Positions 57,644 to 63,449 of a DNA stretch of 64,000 nt are shown one piece after another. The stretch lies in contig CACMUL010000001.1 of NCBI GenBank assembly GCA_902616855.1, positions 1 to 64,000 of the forward strand, given 5' to 3'. The notes beneath the pieces were generated by a model. That model was not told the origin of the DNA. It ran no database searches and saw only the letters and a list, made by a program, of their open reading frames with translations. Each line of letters starts with the position of its first letter. Within the stretch, counting starts at the first letter, position 1. Source of the stretch: an uncultured Alphaproteobacteria bacterium (GTDB lineage: Bacteria; Pseudomonadota; Alphaproteobacteria; HIMB59). The translations under genes were made by a program, and so were the position numbers.

Positions 57644-58831
57644 GTGAAAGATGAATTCAATAGAATAGATCGCTTACCACCCTATATATTTGGTGAGATT
57701 AATAAACTAAAAGCCAAATTAAGAAAGAATGGCAAAGATATAATTGATTTTGGTATGGGTAACCCAGATATGCCCACACCAAAACATATTAGGGATAAAT
57801 TAAAAGAGGTTACAGATAAACCTGGTACAGGGAGATATTCAGTCAGTAAAGGCATACCTGGATTAAGAAAAGCTCAAGCAAAGTATTATAAAAAGAGATT
57901 TGGAGTGAATTTAAATCCTGATAGTGAAGTTATAGTAACATTGGGTTCCAAGGAGGGTTTAGCTAATCTAGCGCAAGCAATTTCTACACCTGGAGACATT
58001 ATAATTTCTCCCAATCCATCATATCCTATTCATCCTTATGGATTTATTATTGCAGGAGCTTCTTTGAGACATTTACAGACAATGAAAGATGGAGTTTTTG
58101 ATCCTGAAATTTATCTTGAAAGATTAGATCGATCTATAAGAAATAGCACTCCATCTCCAGTAGCTCTAATTGTATCCTTTCCATCTAATCCAACAGCTCA
58201 AGTTGTTGACTTAAATTTTTATAAAGAAATAGTTAAGATGGCCTTGAAGTATAATGTTTATGTTTTATCAGATCTTGCTTATGCAGAGATATATTTTGAT
58301 AAGAAACCACCACCATCAATTCTCCAAGTAAATAAAGCTAAAGAGATTGCTGTTGAGTTTACTTCTATGTCAAAAACTTACGCTATGGCCGGTTGGAGAA
58401 TAGGATTTGCTGTTGGAAATAAAAAACTAATTGAAGCTCTTACTAAAATTAAATCTTACTTAGACTATGGTGCTTACACGCCAGTGCAAGTAGCAGCAGC
58501 AACAGCACTTAATGGACCTCAAACTTGTGTCTCAAGTATTAGAGCAACATACGAGAGTAGAAGAGATGTTTTAGTAGAGTCTATGTCAAGATCTGGCTGG
58601 GATATACCTAGTCCTGCGGCTAGTATGTTTGCATGGGCACCAATCCCTAAAAAATACCAAAATAAAGGCTCTTTAAAATTTGCTAAAGATTTAATGGTCA
58701 AAGCAGATGTAGCTGTTTCTCCTGGTATTGCTTTTGGCGAATATGGCGAAGGTTTTGTTCGTATAGGACTGGTTGAAAATGAGCAAAGAATTCGTCAGGC
58801 AGCTAAAAATGTACGTAATCTAAAGCTTTAG
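57644..58831 (+). CDS. AlaC-type aminotransferase (class I/II)
   Basis: 395 residues: IIDFGMGNPDMPTPKHIRDK, GRYSVSKGIPGLRKAQAKYY, LGSKEGLANLAQA, PNPSYPIHPYG and PLP lysine in SMSKTYAMAGWRIGFAVG. It belongs to the AlaC/YfdZ and LL-diaminopimelate-aminotransferase-like group; alanine:2-oxoglutarate transamination is the usual annotation. It starts at GTG 57644. The following 76-base gap contains TTGATA and TATATAA-like sequences but no strong promoter. Confidence 0.85.
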   Translation: MKDEFNRIDRLPPYIFGEINKLKAKLRKNGKDIIDFGMGNPDMPTPKHIRDKLKEVTDKPGTGRYSVSKGIPGLRKAQAKYYKKRFGVNLNPDSEVIVTLGSKEGLANLAQAISTPGDIIISPNPSYPIHPYGFIIAGASLRHLQTMKDGVFDPEIYLERLDRSIRNSTPSPVALIVSFPSNPTAQVVDLNFYKEIVKMALKYNVYVLSDLAYAEIYFDKKPPPSILQVNKAKEIAVEFTSMSKTYAMAGWRIGFAVGNKKLIEALTKIKSYLDYGAYTPVQVAAATALNGPQTCVSSIRATYESRRDVLVESMSRSGWDIPSPAASMFAWAPIPKKYQNKGSLKFAKDLMVKADVAVSPGIAFGEYGEGFVRIGLVENEQRIRQAAKNVRNLKL

Positions 58832-58907
58832 TCTAATTTTTAATCATATCTCAAATTAAATAAAATATTGCTTATATTCTTGATAATTATATAAAACCAA
58901 CCTTAAG

Positions 58908-59954
58908 ATGATTAACACAAAAAAAATAGGCTCTGTTCTCAAAAACATCAAGAATATTGATGAATTGAGCATTTCAGATGTAATTGATTGTAATCAAGGT
59001 CAATTAATTGCTGTTAAAGTAATTTCAGTCAATCCGAATTATAATAAATTGGAGTTAGTCTCTGGAAGAATTACTGAATTAACTGAGGGAGATATTATCG
59101 TTGGTGCCTTGGGTTATAGAATTGCTTCCTCAGGAATGACAGGTTCTGTTCCTATTGATTTAAATAAACACGACAAAATTCATATTTTAAATTTAGGAGG
59201 AGTTATTGGCAATTGTAAAGATTTTAATATTCTTTTAGGACCAGCTACAGAATGTGAAGTTCTTGGATCGATTGTAGATAAAAGTAACAAACAATTGAAT
59301 CTAGTTGATTATTCAAAAATAAAAGAAATGAAAATTAACAATAAAGTTCCATCTATTGCAGTCATCGGAACAGGTATAGACTCTGGTAAAACTACTGTCA
59401 CATCCTTTATAATAAAAACTCTAAGTAATTATTTTAAGAAAATTAATGCATGCAAATTAGCAGGCACCGCTTCACAAAAAGACTTATATTCTTATGAGGA
59501 TAATGGTGCTTATAAAACATCAGATTTTGTAGACTACGGTCTGCCTAGTACCTGCATGAACGATAAAAAAACCATACAAAGTTGTTCAACATCAATTATT
59601 AGTAATATGTCTGAGGACGCTGAAATAATTCTAATGGAATTAGGTGATGGTTATCATGGCGATTATGGAACTAAAGAAATAATTCAAAATACTGATATTA
59701 CAGAGTCAATCGAAGTTATTGTAATTTGTGCTTATGACGTATCAGGAGCAGTAAATATTATAGATAATTTAAAATCAAATAATTTAGATAATAAATTACT
59801 AATAATAAGTGGCCCTGTAACTAATAATGTATCTGCTTATAAGCAATCAATTGATAAGTTTTCTATACCTAATTCAGACTTTTTAAATATTTATAATTCA
59901 ACTAACCATGTCAATGTTTTTGCTAAGATAATTAATAGGATTAATAATGATTAA
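58908..59954 (+). CDS. P-loop ATPase of unknown function, DUF1611-like layout
   Basis: 348 residues. N-terminal beta-rich region (about 1-145), then a P-loop at IAVIGTGIDSGKTTVTSFII, KLAGTASQKDLYSYE, SDFVDYGLPSTC, and ILMELGDGYHGDYGTKEI. The arrangement resembles DUF1611/DgcN-type and dethiobiotin-synthetase-like proteins, by eye only. It overlaps an ArgC-like gene by 8 bases, and an ArgB-like kinase follows, so it may attach or remove an amino-group protecting moiety, or activate a carboxylate (inference). Confidence 0.6.
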   Translation: MINTKKIGSVLKNIKNIDELSISDVIDCNQGQLIAVKVISVNPNYNKLELVSGRITELTEGDIIVGALGYRIASSGMTGSVPIDLNKHDKIHILNLGGVIGNCKDFNILLGPATECEVLGSIVDKSNKQLNLVDYSKIKEMKINNKVPSIAVIGTGIDSGKTTVTSFIIKTLSNYFKKINACKLAGTASQKDLYSYEDNGAYKTSDFVDYGLPSTCMNDKKTIQSCSTSIISNMSEDAEIILMELGDGYHGDYGTKEIIQNTDITESIEVIVICAYDVSGAVNIIDNLKSNNLDNKLLIISGPVTNNVSAYKQSIDKFSIPNSDFLNIYNSTNHVNVFAKIINRINND

Positions 59955-60939
59955 AGTAGGCATAATTGGAGCAAATGGTTATTTAGGTGTTGAGTTAATA
60001 CGAATTCTCTCTGTACATCCTGAAGTAAAATTATCAAAAATCTTTCAAAGAGAAATGGAAATAGATGATGAATTTCCACATTTACAGTCATTAAATTTAA
60101 AAGATTTACAGACATCTAATCTTGATGATTTTAAAAATCTCGATTGTGTTTTTTTATCATTACCTCATGGTTCAGCCCATGAATATGTCAAAGAATTATT
60201 ATCAAAAGTTAAAATTATAGATCTAAGTTCTGATTTTAGGATTTCTATTCAAGAGGATTATAATAAATATTACAAATCAAATTTTGATGCTGACATTCAA
60301 AGCAAGTTTCAATACGGATTTATTGAAAATTCAATCGATGACATAAAAAAATCTTCCAACATATCCAATCCTGGTTGCTTTGCACTTACGGCTCAACTAT
60401 CTATATTGCCATTTCAATCTATAATTAAAAAAGTATCTATTACTGCTATTACTGGATCAAGTGGTGGTGGTAAAAATCCCTCTATGAAAAATCATCATTC
60501 TACAAGGTCTAAAGATATTTTTTCATATAATATTAATTCACATCGACATTTAGCAGAAATTTATCAATCTTTTCCTAATTTAAAGGAGACTCTATCATTT
60601 GTGCCTCTGTCTGGCCCTTTCTCTCGAGGTATATATCTAACAAGTCACATTGAAACATATGAAGATGCAACTTATGAGTCCTTAAATTCTAGTTTAATAG
60701 ATTGTTTTAAATTATCTCCTTTCATTAGAGTACAAAATAATACTAAGCTCTCTAATGTAGTAGGTTCAAATTATTGTGATATTTCACTTTCTTATAAAGA
60801 TCAGAGGCACTTCGTTGTAGAGGCTTGTTTAGATAATTTAGTAAAGGGTGCTTCAGGTAACGCTGTTGAGTGTATGAATATAATTTTTGATCTTGATCAA
60901 TCATTAGGATTGAAACAAATGATACCTTTATATCTATAA
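59947..60939 (+). CDS. ArgC-like N-acyl-aminoacyl-phosphate reductase
   Basis: 330 residues. NADP-binding GIIGANGYLGVELIRIL, catalytic Cys in NPGCFALTAQL, SSGGGKNPSMKNHHSTRS and NSHRHLAEIYQSF (ArgC-type His), NLVKGASGNAVECMNIIF at the end. It reduces an acyl phosphate to an aldehyde. The segment FVPLSGPFSRGIYLTSHIE and the TGSSGGGKNP loop differ from typical ArgC wording, so N-acetylglutamyl phosphate may not be the substrate. It overlaps the P-loop gene by 8 bases and the kinase by 1. Confidence 0.82.
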   Translation: MIKVGIIGANGYLGVELIRILSVHPEVKLSKIFQREMEIDDEFPHLQSLNLKDLQTSNLDDFKNLDCVFLSLPHGSAHEYVKELLSKVKIIDLSSDFRISIQEDYNKYYKSNFDADIQSKFQYGFIENSIDDIKKSSNISNPGCFALTAQLSILPFQSIIKKVSITAITGSSGGGKNPSMKNHHSTRSKDIFSYNINSHRHLAEIYQSFPNLKETLSFVPLSGPFSRGIYLTSHIETYEDATYESLNSSLIDCFKLSPFIRVQNNTKLSNVVGSNYCDISLSYKDQRHFVVEACLDNLVKGASGNAVECMNIIFDLDQSLGLKQMIPLYL

Positions 60940-61787
60940 TGAAAAATCAAAGTTTTTACCAATCAATATTACAAAATTCCATACTTGTCATTAAAGTTAG
61001 TGGTAAAATTTGTGATAATGAAGGTAGTATAGATAATGTTATAAACGACATTAAAGAATTATTAAACTCTATTTCGAAGTTAAAAGTTGTTTTAGTCTTT
61101 GGATTTGGACGACAGCTAGATAACTATATGATCAATGTACATGGTATTGAGCCAAAAAAAATAAATGGTAGAAGAGTAACATCTCCCACAGACATAGAGG
61201 CAGCCAAAAAAATATCTGGTCAAATTTTAATAGATATTTTTAGCTTAAGTTCACGATATAATATCAGAAATTTTCCAATTCCTATTTCAAAGAAGGACTT
61301 TATAGCGGCAAAGAGAAGAGAAGTAGTTGATAACATTGATTATGGTCAAGTTGGGGACGTCGTTTCAGTTGATGCTTTACAAATTAAAAACTTATTCAAG
61401 GAACATGATATGATAATTATGCCAAGTTTAGTTTTAGATAAAAATTCATCTGAGGTATTAAATGTTAATGCTGACACCATTGCTACTGAATTAGCAATAA
61501 ATCTCTCAGCTAGTAAACTAATTTTTATCTCCGACGTTCCTTTTATCAAAGATACTCAAGGAGAAAGAATTTCTACAGTTGATGAAAATGTAGCAAGAAA
61601 ACTTTATGATGAGAAAATTATATCTAATGGAATGATTGTAAAGGTAGAAAACTCATTAAAAGCTTTAAATATGGGTGTTCAAAAAATCCACATTATTAGC
61701 GGTGAAATTAAAAATGCACTCCTCAATGAATTAGAGACAGAAGAGGGTATAGGTACAGTTTTTCAAAAACAATCTCTTGACTATTAA
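60939..61787 (+). CDS. ArgB-like amino-acid kinase family protein
   Basis: 282 residues of the amino acid kinase fold resembling N-acetylglutamate kinase: ILVIKVSGKI, VLVFGFGRQLDNYM, NGRRVTSPTDIEAAKKI, VLNVNADTIATELAINLSAS, KLIFISDVPFIKD, NGMIVKVENSLKALNMG. The glycine-rich loop normally reading HGGG is GFGRQ, and GGM is NGM, so it is a divergent paralogue. It supplies the acyl phosphate for the ArgC-like reductase. Followed by two palindromes and a DsrE-like gene. Confidence 0.78.
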   Translation: MKNQSFYQSILQNSILVIKVSGKICDNEGSIDNVINDIKELLNSISKLKVVLVFGFGRQLDNYMINVHGIEPKKINGRRVTSPTDIEAAKKISGQILIDIFSLSSRYNIRNFPIPISKKDFIAAKRREVVDNIDYGQVGDVVSVDALQIKNLFKEHDMIIMPSLVLDKNSSEVLNVNADTIATELAINLSASKLIFISDVPFIKDTQGERISTVDENVARKLYDEKIISNGMIVKVENSLKALNMGVQKIHIISGEIKNALLNELETEEGIGTVFQKQSLDY

Positions 61788-61790
61788 TAA

Positions 61791-61828
61791 ATGTAATAAT
61801 ATTACATCCATATGTAATAATATTACAT
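61791..61828. promoter_or_regulatory. Two identical tandem palindromes (operator)
   Basis: ATGTAATAATATTACAT occurs at 61791-61807 and 61812-61828. Each has 7-base inverted arms (ATGTAAT/ATTACAT) around AAT, and centres are 21 bases apart, two helical turns. They lie between the kinase stop (61787) and the DsrE-like start (61860), 31 bases upstream of it. The arrangement fits a pair of dimeric repressor sites. I do not know the regulator. Confidence 0.7.
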
Positions 61829-61859
61829 CTAATTAAAAATATAAAAATAAGGAGATATT

Positions 61860-62237
61860 ATGAAAATTGCTTATGTTTTTAAAACAAGTATGTCGAGCAC
61901 ATTTCAACTAGGTACGATGATTTTACCACAATTGCAGAGAAATTCTCATGGTGTTGATGTTGCAGGTATGTTTTTTTTCGATGACAACATATTTTGTCTA
62001 AAAAAGGGTGATCCCATTGGTGAAAAACTGTCAAAAATTGCTATTGAAAAAAATATGTTATTAATGGTTTGCGATGCCTGTGCAGTTAGAAGAAATTTAG
62101 CTGAAGGAACACTTGAACAATGCGGAAGTGGTGATGTAAAAGCTAGGGGTTTGGTTGATGGTGTAGTGGCAGGATGTTTTCCTCAATTATACAATGCACT
62201 TGGTGGTAATCCTCCAGATCAAGTAATCACTTTATAA
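61860..62237 (+). CDS. DsrE/DsrF-family-like protein
   Basis: 125 residues. IAYVFKTSMSSTFQLGTMIL and FFFDDNIFCLKKGDPIGEKL match the DsrE-fold. Cysteines are clustered: VCDACAVRRNLAEG, EQCGSG and VAGCFPQLYN, giving a CxxC plus two more. The C-terminal NPPDQVITL is distinctive. The family includes sulfur carriers and sulfur-transfer subunits; the role here is unknown. AAGGAG sits just upstream. Twin palindromes precede it, so it is probably regulated separately from the ArgC/ArgB-like operon. Confidence 0.72.
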   Translation: MKIAYVFKTSMSSTFQLGTMILPQLQRNSHGVDVAGMFFFDDNIFCLKKGDPIGEKLSKIAIEKNMLLMVCDACAVRRNLAEGTLEQCGSGDVKARGLVDGVVAGCFPQLYNALGGNPPDQVITL

Positions 62238-62250
62238 ACTAAAAAAATAT

Positions 62251-62274
62251 AAGGGTGATCATAAAATCACCCTT
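62251..62274. terminator. Bidirectional terminator between DsrE-like and ArgD-like genes
   Basis: AAGGGTGAT and ATCACCCTT form a perfect 9-pair stem with a 6-base loop. On the minus strand it is followed by ATATTTTTTT, a good intrinsic terminator for the aminotransferase, which ends 21 bases before. On the plus strand no T-run follows, so termination of the DsrE-like gene is weaker. Confidence 0.75.
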
Positions 62275-62294: not shown

Positions 62295-63449
62295 CTAAAG
62301 TGACTCTGAAATTATATTTATAGCTTTATTTATTTCCTTTTTAGAAACTATTAATGGAGGTGTAAGACGGATTATATTTCCCTGTATTAAAGTAGAAATA
62401 AGGCCTTTTTTTGACATTTTTTCATATATTTTCGATGCTATTTGACTATTTTTAAACTCAACACCTGCCATAAGACCTAAACATCTTGTATCAACTATTT
62501 TATCTTTATGTAGGTGGTGCATTTTCTTAATTAGACTAGATAGTAAATTACCATTAATCAGTACTTTATTTAAAAATCTTTTAGTATTTATAGTTTTAAA
62601 TACATTATAGGAAACTCTTGTTTGTAGCATACCACCACCAAAAGTTGAGCCATGAAAACCAGTAGAAATAATTTTGGATATATATTTTTTTACTATTGTA
62701 GCACCTATGGGAATGCCTGAACCCAGGCCTTTTGCAGAGGTTATAATATCTGGATTGACACCGTAATGTTTGTAAGCAAATATTTTACCAGTTCGACCTA
62801 TACCACCTTGTATTTCATCCCCAATAAGCAAAATTTTCTTATTTTTACATATTCCTTTTATAGCTTTTGCAAAATTCTTACTGCAAATATTTATACCTCC
62901 GTCCCCTTGAACAAATTCAATTATGATTGCTACCGTTTTTTTATTTACTAATTTTTTGAGATGAGAGACATCATTAAACTTGCAAAACTTTACTTTCCCA
63001 GGAACAGGACCAATATTAGATCTATATTTTTTATTACTACCCACGGATAAAGCACCAATTGTTCTCCCGTGAAAAGAGGAGGTCATTGCGATGATTTCAT
63101 CTCTACCATATTTACTACCATAATTTCTCGCAATTTTTAGAGCAGCCTCAATACTCTCGGCACCAGAGTTAGAAAAGAATACATCTCCTTTATTGGAATT
63201 ATCAGATAGTAACTTAGATAATTTAGTTTTAAATTCATGTATTTGTGATCCTGACAGATGAGTAATTCCTGTTTTAAGTTGAGCTTTAAGGCTATTTTTA
63301 ATTACTGGATGATTATATCCAAGAGAATTTACAGCAACCCCTGCTGAGAAATCTAATAATTTTCTTTTATCAGAGGTGTATAAATAACATCCATTACCCT
63401 TTACCACTCTAAAATTACTAAATTTGTATGTTTTTAATAAGTTATTCAT
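62295..63449 (-). CDS. argD: Acetylornithine-aminotransferase-like (ArgD-type) class III aminotransferase
   Basis: 384 residues: LDFSAGVAVNSLGYNHPVIK, FFSNSGAESIEAALKIAR, FHGRTIGALSVG, and PLP-lysine region SAKGLGSGIPIGA, with STFGGGMLQTRV. Transaminates N-acyl-glutamate-semialdehyde to N-acyl-ornithine or related compounds. It is convergent with the P-loop/ArgC-like/ArgB-like unit rather than in the same operon, yet could act with it. The GDEIQGGIGRTG segment resembles the ornithine-type clade. The ATG follows an AT-rich 45-base gap from the LysR end. Confidence 0.84.
   Translation of the reverse strand: MNNLLKTYKFSNFRVVKGNGCYLYTSDKRKLLDFSAGVAVNSLGYNHPVIKNSLKAQLKTGITHLSGSQIHEFKTKLSKLLSDNSNKGDVFFSNSGAESIEAALKIARNYGSKYGRDEIIAMTSSFHGRTIGALSVGSNKKYRSNIGPVPGKVKFCKFNDVSHLKKLVNKKTVAIIIEFVQGDGGINICSKNFAKAIKGICKNKKILLIGDEIQGGIGRTGKIFAYKHYGVNPDIITSAKGLGSGIPIGATIVKKYISKIISTGFHGSTFGGGMLQTRVSYNVFKTINTKRFLNKVLINGNLLSSLIKKMHHLHKDKIVDTRCLGLMAGVEFKNSQIASKIYEKMSKKGLISTLIQGNIIRLTPPLIVSKKEINKAINIISESL

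Follow-up and report, generated by a model that had tools for sequence, protein, structure and literature searches.

A predicted double Zur operator in front of a DsrE-fold gene in an uncultured alphaproteobacterium

The window, as we call the whole 64,000-nucleotide stretch of DNA analysed here, carries a small gene for a protein of the DsrE/YchN fold. Upstream of it lies a cluster (57644-61787) encoding an LL-diaminopimelate-type aminotransferase, a 348-aa protein with a weak AAA_26 match, ArgC and an ArgB-like kinase, whereas an argD-like gene (62295-63449) converges on it from the other side. The gene immediately upstream is the amino-acid kinase, with its stop codon at 61785-61787, which falls below the argB cut-off and is matched slightly better by an ArgA-type model than by ArgB. 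Between this stop codon and the ribosome-binding site of the DsrE-like gene, an initial annotation had described a pair of identical 17-base palindromes with centres 21 bases apart, and the coordinates agree with that description. The features of the region are the following:

61777-61782, plus strand: −35-like hexamer TTGACT of a putative promoter, inside the 3'-terminal codons of the upstream kinase gene
61791-61807, no strand: box 1, ATGTAATAATATTACAT, a predicted Zur (zinc uptake regulator) site, based on shuffles, matrix score and conservation
61800-61805: possible −10 element TATTAC, separated from TTGACT by a 17-nt spacer, inside box 1 and non-consensus
61812-61828, no strand: box 2, an exact copy of box 1 placed 21 bp downstream and likewise a predicted Zur site, based on shuffles and kept spacing
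61849-61854, plus strand: ribosome-binding site AAGGAG, read from the sequence and conserved in four relatives (L005-L008)
61860-62237, plus strand: gene for a DsrE/YchN-fold protein of 125 aa (NF040913), from family match and fold
62251-62274, no strand: 10-bp stem in the gap where the DsrE-like and argD-like genes converge, resembling a terminator on the minus strand

Each copy of ATGTAATAATATTACAT is an 8-1-8 palindrome in which the sole unpaired base is the central one, and the centre-to-centre distance is 21 bp. A chance origin had been considered unlikely, and exact matches to ATGTAATNNNATTACAT number two in the window and zero in 100 dinucleotide shuffles. The possibility that the same sequence recurs at many non-promoter sites had also been raised; however, copies with up to three mismatches amount to 20 in the window against 19.9 expected, so that we are dealing with an isolated element, and a dispersed repeat is ruled out by this count together with the scarcity of the motif genome-wide. 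Equally, the twin boxes are kept in relatives: across the window and four aligned relatives the boxes differ at the central base only, while the 4-bp spacer and the neighbouring columns vary. The probability of a chance occurrence or a functionless local duplication is therefore virtually nil, in spite of the AT-rich DNA, given the empty shuffles, the invariance of the boxes amid varying columns, and the presence of the same motif ahead of orthologues in other lineages.

The hexamer TTGACT precedes the core of the first box by 16 nt, and a TTGAC at 15-16 nt before this core is unchanged in the same four relatives (L005-L008) despite a different upstream gene. A generic promoter scan of the window did not list this promoter, because the −10 element is non-consensus. 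As the possible −10 falls inside box 1, occupation of either box by a protein should prevent initiation. In L005, G017, G024 and G083, whose gene orders were read, the kinase is replaced upstream of DsrE by an unrelated 506-aa gene on the opposite strand, and close relatives with this gene between kinase and DsrE retain the −35, both boxes and the ribosome-binding site. The 506-aa gene, absent from the window, was also seen between kinase and DsrE in L103 (8823-10343, with a Polysacc_lyase match), L104 (3764-5284) and L176 (3373-4893).

These gene orders bear on the idea that the palindromes act as RNA, the two copies pairing in the transcript into a long AU stem that would serve the upstream argC/argB-like operon as a hairpin or terminator. 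The chances of this reading are very slight, even if the predicted folding (-12.7 kcal/mol, z -3.5) and the location directly after the kinase stop codon would suit it: any two identical palindromes fold in this manner, the stem consists almost entirely of A-U pairs and lacks a T run, relatives have a gene other than the kinase next to DsrE, and in other lineages a lone box or overlapping registers invariably lie immediately ahead of DsrE or zinc genes.

A genome-wide search for the motif, suggested by the initial annotation, was run on the assembly (1.13 Mb, about 76% complete). The pattern TGTWATRNYATWACA occurs in it at three sites, two before the DsrE gene and one between the divergent znuA and znuC-znuB-zur. 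Among the assembly matches with up to two mismatches, the only single-mismatch relative is ATGTAATAGTATAACAT (G000:C15:6492-6508), which sits in this same intergenic region, between znuC-znuB-zur and znuA on opposite strands, with a degenerate second box, CTGTTATATTATTACGT, 17 bp away. A further candidate found with a wider pattern, ATGTTTTAATATAACAT at G000:C2:78209 (1 mismatch), was discarded for its location inside a coding gene. Zinc ABC transporter models are the best matches for ZnuA, ZnuB and ZnuC alike. The gene downstream of znuB encodes a 137-aa Fur-family protein. Among NCBIfam models it scores highest against Zur PRK11639, with 79 bits and below the 167-bit cut-off; among solved chains it is closest to 7dh7, which is a Fur-family regulator, and to E. 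coli Zur 4mtd.

The same association emerges from the genus. In 52 genomes there are 76 exact matches to TGTWATRNYATWACA, compared with 2 for the reversed pattern, and the 30 sites that were fetched correspond to znu (23), Fur/Zur-like genes (4), COG0523 GTPases (2) and DsrE (1). Five of the 52 genomes (G000, G017, G024, G062 and G083) encode the DsrE protein, and the twin box with its 21-bp spacing is found in exactly these. In 16 genomes carrying DsrE, including that of the window, 36 exact sites were detected; the annotated ones lie at DsrE, znuA/znuC-zur, zur and COG0523, and unannotated sites were assigned by position. The operator motif is thus shared with the znu promoter, restricted to zinc genes and DsrE, and conserved across lineages. 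A dimeric regulator sensing sulfur or metal status had been proposed initially, and the metal half of this proposal holds up, since the Zur motif and the zinc genes point to a Fur-family regulator with two dimer sites; its sulfur half is unsupported, and a sulfur regulator was rejected in view of the absence of sulfur genes from the fetched motif sites.

In order to avoid circularity, a scoring matrix was built solely from five Paracoccus denitrificans sites for which Zur binding has been reported from EMSA (PMC5387054). We fetched 80 loci encoding DsrE relatives and scored 79 DsrE upstream regions: 45 of them reach a score of at least 12, against 19 of 773 upstream regions of other genes in the same loci, counts that do not represent independent events because about half of the homologue loci come from closely related marine single cells. 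Nearly all of the 19 belong to a divergent gene sharing the DsrE promoter, or to znu/zur genes. The box of the window scores 13.1 of a possible 16.5 (shuffle p about 0.0015), and its half-site, GTAATA, is one base off the GTTATA common in relatives and occurs as such in P. denitrificans.

Altogether, the palindromes are very likely Zur boxes, as judged from their sequence and company. Boxes of the Fur family resemble one another, and the genome holds one further Fur-family gene (G000:C15:7907-8323, an Irr match adjoining an iron-transporter-like binding protein), which makes an operator of some other member of the family, such as this Irr-like protein, conceivable; it is nonetheless highly unlikely, as the fetched sites fall at zinc uptake, zur-like and COG0523 genes and none at iron genes, and a matrix made of sites shown to bind Zur recovers the boxes.

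The predicted Zur boxes reach well beyond the genus, in diverse arrangements. In marine alphaproteobacterial records, ATGTTATANTATAACAT or a near variant is almost universal upstream of DsrE, whereas other lineages have a single box, or a pair offset by 5, 15 or 22 bp; overlapping boxes with the 5-bp offset occur in several SAR11-type relatives (L009, L010, L023-L025). A palindrome scan of the homologues scored as box-less revealed a Zur-type box 334 bp upstream of DsrE in a Nitrosomonas record (L053), shared with a divergent zur, and a AATGATAAT-GA-ATTATCATT palindrome upstream of DsrE in L056. Palindromes of the type TTGCAA-spacer-TTGCAA, which resemble a different Fur-family box, precede DsrE in Verrucomicrobia/Planctomycetes records (L034, L039, L040 and L057); a genome-wide search for the Nur-type TTGCAA-N5-TTGCAA in six genomes gave few matches and no readable pattern. 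Exact Zur-type boxes also abut a second, 124-aa Zur-like gene (L162, L168 and L173, each at 1501-1515, and L179 at 1679-1693), directly after its stop codon in L168 and L173, and 0.4-0.5 kb before a conserved secreted-protein-like gene.

A complementary line of evidence comes from the gene neighbourhoods. Genes for zur, znu, COG0523, hisI2 or thrS are found nearby in about 20 of 79 DsrE loci, and DsrE genes devoid of a box often adjoin COG0523, hisI2, thrS or zur. The DsrE gene directly follows znuC-znuB-zur in two loci (L044 and L045), the full order in L044 being znuA, then znuC-znuB-zur-DsrE; it accompanies a COG0523 GTPase and/or a hisI paralogue in Verrucomicrobia, Gemmatimonadetes, Nitrospinaceae and several alphaproteobacterial records; and in Leptolyngbyaceae it comes after thrS, with znuB and COG0523 nearby in two cases. 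Regulation by Zur is established for the accessory genes encoding HisI, ThrRS and COG0523 (PMC2770081, PMC6103462), which the DsrE-like gene thereby adjoins in several phyla, but unlike the HisI2 and ThrS2 paralogues its product has no known zinc enzyme as a paralogue. In the most distant homologues, short proteins of 109-112 aa (L075-L084), both the box and the zinc neighbours were missing. The zinc link therefore does not extend to the DsrE-like family as a whole and belongs to the group of 125-133-aa homologues with an extra loop bearing C88.

Other small genes recur in these surroundings. DUF1636 or DUF1636-like small cysteine proteins are encoded near DsrE or Zur boxes (L132 1579-1992 and L042 2053-2454). 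The gene in L132 is closely preceded by three exact box matches, and this protein is a probable additional member of the zinc regulon. A 146-147-aa protein lies between hisI2 and COG0523 (L034 7113-7553, with equivalents in L039 and L040), and a His-rich 380-aa protein (EEGHEGHDHGAHGGEG; L026 6410-7552) is encoded directly downstream of DsrE; both are without a Pfam or NCBIfam match, and the latter is possibly a zinc-related envelope protein.

Regarding the product itself, it matches the SaoD/DsrE family NF040913 (DsrE_rel_ELSE) with 194 bits, over a cut-off of 152 and along residues 1-125, and scores 114.8 bits against SaoD NF040732, below the 169 cut-off for membership. The predicted structure is confident (pLDDT 95.5, pTM 0.89) and resembles chains of YchN, TusBCD and DsrEFH (Z 11.2-11.3); a DsrE-profile sequence search of solved structures returned weak matches only. 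C71 aligns with Cys78 of Allochromatium vinosum DsrE, the TusD/DsrE sulfurtransferase cysteine, a sulfur-binding residue needed in vivo (PMC3397948). Model and alignment therefore predict both the fold and the active-site cysteine of TusD/DsrE sulfurtransferases, the fold being also that of YchN. The invariant residues are C71, C74, C106, H30, D42 and D72; in contrast to TusD/DsrE, C74 and C106 are extra invariant cysteines (in 41 aligned sequences), and the gene stands alone under a predicted zinc operator. Partners of the tusBC/dsrFH or dsrC/TusE types were not recognised among the adjacent genes in the listed loci. Less firmly than for the operator, we consider that the protein is most likely a small cysteine-based carrier for zinc or sulfane sulfur under zinc limitation.

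The reading that we favour, with high confidence, is that a double Zur operator overlaps the promoter of the DsrE-fold gene, which is monocistronic and would be repressed in the presence of zinc and induced together with ZnuABC under scarcity. Zur binding, repression, zinc as the signal and cooperativity are what we infer from the comparisons described. When zinc is sufficient, zinc-loaded Zur dimers would occupy both boxes, 21 bp apart on the same helix face, and block RNA polymerase; when zinc becomes scarce, Zur would release the DNA, and the DsrE-like protein would be made together with ZnuABC. Cooperative binding by two Zur dimers is plausible, because 21 bp correspond to two helical turns and because the linker residues Asp49/Arg52 of E. 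coli Zur, which act between overlapping dimers (PMC4219657), align with Asp39/Lys42 here, the Asp being conserved and the Arg replaced by Lys.

The operator itself is of a standard, already known kind. With the P. denitrificans Zur operators of the znuA/zur, aztA and COG0523 promoters (PMC5387054) it shares the 13-bp core geometry GTWAYR-N-YRTWAC, and the two systems have in common the GTAATA half-site, two boxes at the znuA/zur promoter and COG0523 targets; what differs is the target, here a DsrE-fold gene, and the presence of two identical boxes exactly 21 bp apart. The E. coli znuABC operator likewise receives two cooperative dimers, and the purine-NNN-pyrimidine contacts of its regulator fit GTAAT/ATTAC, but those dimers share one overlapping element (PMC4219657), whereas the boxes described here are separate and two turns apart.

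In the literature searched, we found no DsrE-family protein tied to Zur or zinc. A broader proposal, which to us is evenly poised between right and wrong, is that the NF040913 DsrE-fold protein would be an unrecognised component of the low-zinc response in several phyla, a cysteine carrier (C71, C74, C106 and often C88) that may move zinc or sulfur between proteins beside COG0523 GTPases, with an operator rebuilt in various two-dimer layouts in different lineages (offsets of 5, 15, 21 and 22 bp). Work on E. coli Zur indicates that the zinc response is tuned by operator sequence and cooperativity (PMC4219657), and the varied box layouts across lineages offer a natural comparison for such operator tuning. 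Comparative genomics suggests that high-affinity zinc uptake is a rare trace-metal trait kept by streamlined SAR11 genomes (PMC4771312), and an extra low-zinc gene in marine Alphaproteobacteria would therefore be ecologically relevant. A conserved protein so far described only as “SaoD/DsrE family” is in this way given a regulatory context, its predicted production under zinc starvation, and the DsrE-like gene could act as a marker of zinc stress in metatranscriptomes.
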